NCBI RefSeq assembly: GCF_000688255.1
Contig: NZ_JHYS01000014.1
Span: forward strand, 1-64,000
From: Simplicispira psychrophila DSM 11588
GTDB taxonomy: Bacteria; Pseudomonadota; Gammaproteobacteria; Burkholderiales; Burkholderiaceae_C
Length of the DNA stretch: 64,000 nt
Reading direction: 5' to 3'
Below are positions 56,319 to 57,485 of this stretch, one piece after another; within the stretch, counting starts at the first letter, position 1; the number at the start of each line of letters is the position of its first letter. A program made the translations under genes and the position numbers. The notes under the pieces were generated by a model. It was not told where the DNA came from, did not search any database, and saw only the letters and a list, made by a program, of their open reading frames with translations.

Positions 56319-57305
56319 TTATTTCAGCCAGCCGCGCTTTCTGAAGTACCACATCGGGCCCAGCGCGCTGGCCAGCATCAGCGCCAGCACATACGGGTAG
56401 CCCATCGACCACTCCAGCTCGGGCATGAACTTGAAGTTCATGCCGTAGATGCTGGCAATCAAGGTCGGTGGCAGCAGCGCCACGCTGGCCACCGAGAAAA
56501 TCTTGATGATTTTGTTTTGGTTGATGTTGATGAAACCCACCGTGGCGTCCATCAAAAAGTTGATTTTGTCGAACAAGAAGGCGGTGTGGCTGTCGAGCGA
56601 TTCGATGTCGCGCAGAATTTGCCGTGCTTCTTCAAACTGCTCGGCGTTGAGCATTTTGCTGCGCATCATGAAGCTGACCGCACGGCGCGTGTCCATGACG
56701 TTGCGTCGAATGCGGCCATTCAAGTCTTCTTGGCGCGCAATCGCGCCCAGTACCTCGCCCGCGCGCTCGTCGGTCACGTTGCCGGACAGCACCTGGGTGC
56801 TGACTTTCTCCAGATCGTCGTAAATGCCTTCGAGCGTATCGGCGGAATACTCGGCGTCGGCGTCGAACAGTTTCAGCAACACCTCGCGCGCATCCTCGAT
56901 CAGCCCCGGCGCGCGGCGGGCACGCAGGCGCAGCAGGCGAAACACCGGCACGTCCTCGTCGTGGATGGAGAACAGCACGCCCTTGCTGCGCAGGTCGGGG
57001 TTGGTCAGGTTCAGGATGAAAGCCACGCGCACCGAGCGCGGCTGGTCGTGGTCGTCGATGAGAAAGTCGCTGCGAATATGCAGTTCGCCGTTGTCTTCTT
57101 CGTAAAAACGGGCGGACTCTTCGATGTCCTCGTCCATTGCATCTTCGGGGATGGAGAGGCCGTAATACTGCTTGATCCAGCGCTTTTCGTCGATCGTTGG
57201 TGATTCGAGATCAACCCAGATCGGCTGGAATTTGGACAGCTCTTCCAGCGACTCGATTTCTTCTTGAAAGAGTCGCCCATTGGCAAGCGTGAAGATGTTG
57301 AGCAT
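56319..57305 (-). CDS. corA: CorA magnesium/cobalt transporter
   Basis: This 328-residue protein has a large cytoplasmic domain with acidic helices and two C-terminal membrane segments. The signature is IASIYGMNFKFMPELEWSMG (GMN at the pore), followed by LMLASALGPMWYFRKRGW. It imports Mg2+. Length is normal. A possible structured leader RNA lies directly upstream. Confidence 0.95.
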   Translation of the reverse strand: MLNIFTLANGRLFQEEIESLEELSKFQPIWVDLESPTIDEKRWIKQYYGLSIPEDAMDEDIEESARFYEEDNGELHIRSDFLIDDHDQPRSVRVAFILNLTNPDLRSKGVLFSIHDEDVPVFRLLRLRARRAPGLIEDAREVLLKLFDADAEYSADTLEGIYDDLEKVSTQVLSGNVTDERAGEVLGAIARQEDLNGRIRRNVMDTRRAVSFMMRSKMLNAEQFEEARQILRDIESLDSHTAFLFDKINFLMDATVGFININQNKIIKIFSVASVALLPPTLIASIYGMNFKFMPELEWSMGYPYVLALMLASALGPMWYFRKRGWLK

Positions 57306-57327
57306 GGCTCACTCCCTGAATGGAACG

Positions 57328-57400
57328 GTCGGTAGCGGAGGGGATGAAGTGGCGCGCTTTCAACCCCCCGCAACCGGCCTAGGAGCTGAAAGCTACCGAC
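57328..57400 (-). ncRNA. Candidate structured leader RNA upstream of corA
   Basis: Read as the corA leader, GTCGGTAGC (57400-57392) can pair perfectly with GCTACCGAC (57336-57328), enclosing about 55 nt. Inside, TTTCA (57391-57387) pairs with TGAAA (57362-57358). The G-run of the inner loop (57369-57364) can pair with CCCCTCC (57343-57337) as a pseudoknot with one bulge. The outer stem ends 22 nt before the corA ATG. A metal-responsive riboswitch or attenuator is possible, but no known class was recognised. Confidence 0.45.
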
Positions 57401-57485
57401 TGGGGTAGGTTTCCATGGCTTTTCTCAGCAAAAACGTGAACCGTGAATTATCGCATTCGTATGTGACAAAACGCGTGCAGCTCGC

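Follow-up and report, generated by a model that had tools for sequence, protein, structure and literature searches.

The corA locus and its leader

The window, as the whole 64,000 nt stretch of DNA analysed here is called, carries the magnesium/cobalt transporter gene corA on its minus strand, and the identity of this gene, already given in the original prediction, is upheld by TIGR00383 (E 7.5e-70) and PF01544 (E 9.2e-55). On the same strand, corA has as its 5′ neighbour a gene of the uracil-DNA-glycosylase superfamily (PF03167; 57486-58298, minus strand), 180 nt away, and it is possible that transcription from this gene runs on into corA. The leader holds a promoter element, a short upstream open reading frame (uORF) and four segments with alternative pairings, the last being the core of the corA Shine-Dalgarno (SD) sequence. 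The features are as follows:

56319..57305 (minus strand): corA, magnesium/cobalt transporter, the presumed regulated gene
57447..57455 (minus strand): extended −10 promoter element TGCGATAAT, assigned by conservation among leaders
57393..57416 (minus strand): uORF of 7 codons, METYPSR*, from its translation and its presence in 122/122 leaders of the hairpin set
57382..57393 (minus strand): segment 1, GCUUUCAGCUCC, the 5′ arm of hairpin P1 (1:2), its first base being the G of the uORF stop codon; from covariation
57381..57386 (minus strand): anti-SD part of segment 1 (GCUCCU), complementary to segment 4; from swap tests and flank pairs
57356..57367 (minus strand): segment 2, GGGGUUGAAAGC, the 3′ arm of hairpin P1; from alignment A1, covariation and model R1
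57335..57348 (minus strand): segment 3, UUCAUCCCCUCCGC, C-rich, the alternative partner of the segment 2 G-run; from the minimum free energy (MFE) fold and 2:3 swap tests
57311..57316 (minus strand): segment 4, the corA SD core GGGAGU, partner of segment 1; from swap tests, fold energies and flank pairs
57328..57400 (minus strand): outer stem of the original prediction (arms 57400-57392 and 57336-57328), lineage-specific and outside the conserved switch

The original prediction had described a pseudoknotted leader RNA. Its parts are found on the minus strand where it placed them, namely the arms of a 9 bp outer stem (GTCGGTAGC, 57400-57392, and GCTACCGAC, 57336-57328), an inner TTTCA/TGAAA stem and a G-run/C-run pair, and 22 nt separate the end of the block from the corA ATG (57305). 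Comparison with related leaders shows the inner stem to be the central part of a longer hairpin that is conserved (1:2); two alternatives to this hairpin are likewise conserved, and the G-run/C-run pair is one of them. The outer stem was rejected as a conserved element, with 8–9 Watson–Crick pairs in just 4/189 leaders (L001–L004), which are the window itself and its three best blastn matches. The prediction is sound as to a conserved, structured and regulatory-looking corA leader, but not as to a pseudoknot closed by the outer stem; the uORF (57416-57393) and the SD-complementary segment were absent from it.

Folded as a single sequence, the leader of the window has a z-score of −2.35 against shuffles, with 3/200 shuffles equally good. 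No Rfam family reached its gathering score over the 64 kb window, and permissive E-values gave only chance-level miRNA and snoRNA models in the leader (E ≥ 0.28). The models searched, which we take to include the M-box and mgtA leader families, gave no match to any Mg2+ riboswitch, in agreement with the view that the leader is not a known one.

Leader collections

Leader DNA is present in 38/100 related genomes, the window's own among them, and CorA-like matches occur in 247/250 genomes of the window's family. A set of 155 distinct upstream regions was assembled from 30 leader-DNA loci, 30 CorA loci and 100 places chosen among the best CorA matches listed, with genomes of lower-scoring CorA under-sampled. 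A scripted hairpin search, which needed most of the lower stem to be paired and gave a bonus for TGGA upstream, found the element in 122/155 regions (L051 among them, despite its ORF being in another register). Thirteen of the 33 regions missed by the script carry the same kind of uORF by eye (L077, L102, L113, L137, L141, L152 and L154–L160), so that 135/155 carry the element and 20/155 do not, and the element is consequently not essential.

Adding 80 named loci (Variovorax, Acidovorax, Comamonas, Polaromonas, Rhodoferax, Limnohabitans, Giesbergeria, which is a member of the Comamonadaceae, and others) gave 222 distinct upstream regions. A peptide-motif filter retained a uORF in 191 of these; it demands a proline and the peptide motif, and peptide counts on the 191 are partly imposed by it. 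Six of the 31 excluded regions have a 7-codon uORF by eye (L102, L126, L228, L238, L253 and L299). Two leaders without a hairpin (L290 and L293) were left out of structural counts, giving n = 189.

A conserved upstream ORF

The uORF of the window reads ATG GAA ACC TAC CCC AGT CGG TAG (METYPSR*), and the consensus in Comamonadaceae-type genera is M[E/D]xxPS[R/W/C]; an SD and a −10 element usually accompany it. Its stop codon precedes segment 2 in all leaders (122/122 of the hairpin set, 189/189 of the larger set), and lies at the first base of segment 1 in 103/122 and later in 19/122. Start codons in the 122 are ATG (54), TTG (51), GTG (16) and CTG (1), the TG being imposed by the search pattern NTGGA, which also fixes GAN at codon 2. 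A count free of both constraints, anchored only at the junction of stop codon and hairpin, found ATG, TTG or GTG exactly 7 codons upstream in 145/169 places and GAN as codon 2 in 142/169. Exceptions exist: by eye, residue 2 is not acidic in MLPVPSC (L228 and L253), MKSCPSC (L238) and MNPYPLR (L299), and L333, where the script found no ORF, reads MQPDPR*, with the acidic residue later.

In the 122 leaders chosen without the peptide filter, Pro5 is kept in 120 and uses all four codons (CCC 66, CCT 29, CCG 24 and CCA 1), while Ser6 is kept in 118, as AGT in 113 and as TCT, a two-base synonymous switch, in 5. The filtered 191 have AGT (157) or TCT (19) as codon 6, and Arg, Trp or Cys at codon 7 in 186. 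A single acidic residue among residues 2–6 is present in 184/191, and a single proline among the first seven in 167/191. The uORF has 7 codons in 146 of the 191 and is longer in 45, the longer forms ending within segment 1 or beyond it (such as MEPDPSWQLSTPA and METAPSRQLSTPLRRRA). An SD-like 4-mer precedes it in 152/191 leaders, compared with 11/190 control windows. On sequence evidence, then, a short uORF with start, stop and SD stands before a transporter gene, as in mgtQ-type leaders, and it is presumably translated.

The original reading as a metal-binding riboswitch with a pseudoknot would suit a structured leader with a covarying hairpin in front of a Mg2+/Co2+ channel gene. However, its outer stem is confined to the four leaders mentioned above, its loops differ greatly in both length and sequence and show no conserved pocket, Rfam gives no match, and the strongest conservation is codon-like, leaving a riboswitch very improbable. 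Since the most conserved feature is the 7-codon ORF, a leader-peptide attenuator is favoured over a metal-binding RNA fold.

Such an attenuator might respond to the charging of Pro, Ser or Arg tRNAs, to the state of EF-P or to general translation stress, rather than to Mg2+, and the strong retention of Pro5 and Ser6, the latter mostly as one codon, would be in keeping with this. Single Pro, Ser and Arg codons would nevertheless make a poor starvation sensor, the element stands only before corA in the 86 matching family genomes described below, and early acidic residues recur in the mgtQ and mgtL uORFs of Mg2+ transporters, as the available parts of those reports describe them (PMC8092293, PMC11282234). 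A signal of this other kind is considered unlikely.

Promoter

In 182/191 leaders a [CGT]ATAAT element is found in the 75 nt preceding the uORF, compared with 1/187 control windows, and TG stands one base ahead of it in 164 leaders. A strict two-hexamer scan found no sigma-70 site at the corA promoter of the window, so the promoter assignment there rests on conservation. Transcription would start near 57440 and, as the −10 element is 5′ of the uORF, the whole element lies inside the transcript. A start downstream of the element, which would have been at odds with a leader RNA, is for the same reason unlikely.

Hairpin 1:2 and its alternatives

Hairpin 1:2 (12 bp) starts where the uORF stop codon lies. 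Covariation was examined in 46 leaders (alignment A1) drawn from the hairpin-finder set, with loops of at most 30 nt and thinned. Seven of the 12 pairs show compensatory change and five are invariant, with 94.4% of cells paired; this last figure is partly imposed by the selection of the hairpin finder, which bears less on the compensatory changes and on the upper five pairs. Scored for covariation, the alignment reaches 0.274, compared with 0.147 ± 0.012 for shuffles (0/500 as high) and at most 0.142 for slid versions. The check proposed with the original prediction has therefore found compensatory changes in homologous leaders, for its inner stem.

The hairpin is also recovered when the uORF is the only starting point: 189/191 leaders have a partner of 6 bp or more downstream, 185 of them at a fixed offset. 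Shuffled tails at this offset give at least 6 bp in 36/191, and 9 bp in 5 compared with 142 native leaders. Searched with model R1, built from A1, the window's genome has a single strong place (E 2.4e-22), the next being at 1.7e-3.

The corA SD (GGGAGY) has its complement in the upper half of segment 1 (RCUCCC). Native 1:4 duplexes are stronger than permuted ones (z −10.5, n = 122; z −14.2, n = 191, 0/5000), while a neighbouring region, used as a control, gives no signal (z 1.4, n = 122; z 0.3, n = 191). In the swap test, each leader entered one pair only, together with a near relative in which both segments differ, to reduce the effect of shared ancestry. Among 95 disjoint nearest-relative pairs the native 1:4 combination was better in 61 and the swapped one in 30 (p 0.0015), compared with 43 native and 45 swapped for the control region; the 30 of 91 non-tied pairs that go in the opposite direction count against an attenuator. 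Where both cores are exact (CUCC and GGAG; 112 leaders), pairing exceeds permuted levels at the base 5′ of the core in segment 1 and at each of the three bases 3′ of it (z 4.9, 7.0, 3.6 and 2.4, respectively). The second base before the core pairs below permuted levels (z −3.5) and the fifth after it not above them, limits that give a 1:4 helix of about 6–9 bp.

Segments 2 and 3 behave similarly, with native pairing stronger than permuted (z −13.1, n = 187) and better than swapped in 55 of 93 pairs, compared with 30 for the swapped combination (p 0.0088); here too the opposite direction, in 30/85 non-tied pairs, counts against an attenuator. A control stretch upstream of the uORF gives no signal with segment 2 (z 0.2; 39 vs 48; n = 186). 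Pairing of segment 2 with the SD was also considered and rejected, giving no signal (z −0.6). Together, the 1:4 and 2:3 swap results indicate that segment 1 pairs with 2 or 4, and segment 2 with 1 or 3. Comparative sequence and prediction thus point to mutually exclusive stems of the mgtQ type, one of which would hide the ribosome binding site (RBS).

The tract from the hairpin to the SD is 48% C and 16% G, with C exceeding G in 188/189 leaders; for comparison, the region upstream of the uORF is 33% C and 31% G, with C exceeding G in 112/188. No intrinsic-terminator-like site is present in the window's leader. A Rho-dependent attenuator resembling the enterobacterial corL and mgtL leaders, in which uORF and fold gate Rho loading on the C-rich tract and so control transcription elongation, would account for a C-rich, G-poor tract after the hairpin and for the lack of a terminator-like site, and E. 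coli corA uses Rho together with the corL uORF, according to the part of the report available (PMC11552253). A purely transcriptional device would, however, have no need for the covarying partner of segment 1 to be the SD region of corA, and the C-run has a pairing role (2:3) of its own. Rho-dependent attenuation as the sole explanation is held to be somewhat unlikely; translational and Rho layers could act together.

Predicted fold energies

When hairpin 1:2 is forced and compared with a state in which its lower arm is blocked, the median MFE difference is −0.2 kcal/mol, and the two are within 3 kcal/mol in 104/189 leaders. The SD is predicted to be more open with 1:2 in 147/189 leaders and not more open in 42/189, openness being low in both folds (median 0.24 with 1:2 and 0.07 without). 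Masking 14 nt of segment 1, to mimic a ribosome, leaves the SD more open than in the blocked state in 151/189. For the window (L001), the fold that sequesters the SD is the more stable by 5.7 kcal/mol, with openness at 0.16 vs 0.09, values that weaken the case for an attenuator in this single sequence, because the sequestered fold is favoured and the gap in openness is small.

Distribution, a second form and losses

At E ≤ 1e-4, R1 matches 86/200 genomes of the window's family, with one sense place each (four have the same hairpin in antisense as well). All 86 sense places are directly 5′ of corA, 85 by coordinates compared by eye and one (G183) by its locus. The proportion understates the range, since R1 covers the first form of the leader only.

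Among 300 genomes of the order, 26 match R1 at E ≤ 0.01. Six of these, counting the window's genome, belong to its family and all have corA downstream; the 20 weak matches in other families have no CorA in their ~3 kb loci. The best two matches outside the family (L174 and L175) were judged to be coding sequence and chance. Four of 275 genomes of the class match at E ≤ 1e-4, two of them from the window's family; the others, G707 (which has two places) and G830, show no CorA at the one locus examined in each. By eye, no such uORF and hairpin was seen within 200 nt at 24 loci from other families of the order, of which 19 are informative, the extracted start lying inside a longer ORF in the other five (L217, L219, L220, L222 and L223). 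In the genomes searched, the leader appears confined to corA and to the Comamonadaceae-type family, with no convincing case elsewhere, and diverged forms in other groups might escape R1.

A diverged sub-clade carries a second form, seen in 18 leaders (L154–L160, L322–L327, L329–L332 and L334), with uORFs such as MDVAHPR*, MDVPPTR*, MDSDHPR* and MDKPPSR*. The longer ORF called by the script in L326 ends in the same kind of peptide. Most have a stem of approximately GACCGUCCACUCC...GGAGUGAGACGGU, which begins at TGA or, in read-through forms, at its counterpart, and several once more have an SD that mirrors segment 1 (in L158, ACUCCAAC with GUUGGAGU). Judged by eye, the second form is a different sequence with the same layout. 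In L334, the MDSDHPR* uORF is followed by a 13 bp hairpin with one bulged C, and no SD is evident before corA, so its regulation may differ from that of the other leaders.

The whole leader is gone in L057, L062, L073 and L121, four of the 20 regions that lack the element; here a −10-like element (cATAAT or gATAAT) ends 10–20 nt ahead of the corA start, and corA expression in these species probably does without the switch. Three leaders are degenerate (L078, L087 and L254), keeping the start region of the uORF (GTGGAA; GTGAAA in L254) and having lost the usual stop codon and the hairpin. A short GGGGTCAGATTCC-like sequence occurs before corA in L034 and L043, and in the hairpin loop of L079 in the opposite orientation. 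In L034, where it replaces the usual SD, pairing with segment 1 persists in the region before the start.

Proposed mechanism

We consider it fairly likely that the corA leader is a leader-peptide translational attenuator of mgtQ-like build, sensing ribosome stability and hence low Mg2+. The magnesium state would then probably be sensed by the ribosome itself and not by an RNA pocket. A ribosome would translate the 7-codon uORF and, at the stop codon, cover segment 1. The distance from the ribosomal P-site to the leading edge is about 15 nt, so that a ribosome at the stop codon should cover segment 1 almost exactly. With segment 1 covered, newly made segment 2 would pair with C-rich segment 3 and, once the ribosome is released, free segment 1 would pair with the corA SD (segment 4), turning corA off. 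Low Mg2+ would destabilise the ribosome and favour early drop-off at the acidic-plus-proline start of the peptide; segment 1 would then be free when segment 2 emerges, hairpin 1:2 would form, the SD would stay open and corA would be on.

Comparative sequence supports the uORF, hairpin 1:2, the 1:4 and 2:3 alternatives, the placement of the stop codon, the promoter and the position before corA. From these we infer the sign of regulation, the action of Mg2+ through ribosome drop-off and the order of folding. The opposite sign is possible, with the SD kept open by a ribosome that has halted on segment 1. Further points against the attenuator proposed here are that one acidic residue and mostly one proline make a weaker signal than the EPDP of MgtL, that residue 2 is not acidic in some leaders, that the predicted openness of the SD is low in both folds, that 1:2 does not open it further in 42/189 leaders, and that 20/155 regions lack the element.

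Comparison with known leaders

CorA is a major bacterial Mg2+ channel and, according to the available part of a recent report, corA expression in E. coli was deemed constitutive until lately (PMC11552253). Attenuation of Mg2+ transporter genes through uORFs is a known kind of control, and the conserved, regulatory-looking corA leader of the Comamonadaceae-type family would be a new variant of it. A literature search confined to the best-ranked matches, with most subscription papers outside its scope, found no report of this leader. If the leader works as proposed, ribosome stability would serve as a metal sensor outside the enterobacteria, perhaps reached independently, and the sufficiency of a minimal peptide with one acidic residue and one proline would become directly testable. 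Natural variants (start codons, read-through forms and lost leaders) provide a ready mutant series.

In a fuller version, the chances of which we place about even, the family evolved its own ribosome-based Mg2+ sensor before corA: a 7-residue destabilising peptide with its stop codon fused to a four-segment switch of two nearly isoenergetic folds. It would have arisen independently of mgtQ, mgtL and corL, an early acidic residue and proline being the point of convergence with mgtQ and mgtL. The sub-clades MExxPS[R/W] and MDxx[P/H]xR differ in peptide and stem and share one layout.

The published corA motif is reported only in Gammaproteobacteria and metagenomes, in the portion of that paper available (PMC6429828). 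The present leader, which has no Rfam match, is set apart from that motif and from corL by description. As in the corL-corA leaders of E. coli and Salmonella, a short uORF lies in the 5′ region of corA with two possible folds, and a well-translated corL represses; the enterobacterial system works through Rho, as far as the available text describes it, unlike the corA leader as read here (PMC11552253).

The leader closest in build is that of mgtQ in Salmonella mgtCBRU, a uORF of 8 amino acids with Asp2 and Glu5 in which alternative stems control the mgtB RBS, as given in the accessible part of the report (PMC8092293). Both have a very short uORF with an acidic residue 2 and a proline, and alternative stem-loops; translation initiation is controlled in mgtQ, and would be in the corA leader, by an mRNA fold that masks or exposes the RBS of a Mg2+ transporter gene, a likeness by description, not by sequence, between mgtQ and the betaproteobacterial family (PMC8092293). 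They differ in that mgtQ is intergenic, in the mgtC-mgtB context before mgtB, whereas the present element is the 5′ leader of corA, and in that mgtQ switches between stems 1:2 plus 3:4 and stem 2:3, whereas the corA leader would switch between 1:2 and 2:3 plus 1:4. MgtQ has two acidic residues, and its Pro4 is described as acting through base pairing (PMC8092293).

The mgtL leader of mgtA is described, in the parts of the reports available, as working through EPDP-dependent ribosome destabilisation and drop-off (PMC11282234, PMC6460261). It shares with the corA uORFs the N-terminal acidic and proline residues of a Mg2+ transporter leader peptide, and two relatives (L056 and L067) read MEPDPSW. 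The described mgtL has prolines 3, 5, 7 and 9 and Rho termination, whereas corA uORFs mostly have one acidic residue and one proline. The sign proposed for the corA leader is the same as that described for mgtL, corL and mgtQ: efficient translation of the uORF would repress, and destabilised translation would activate.
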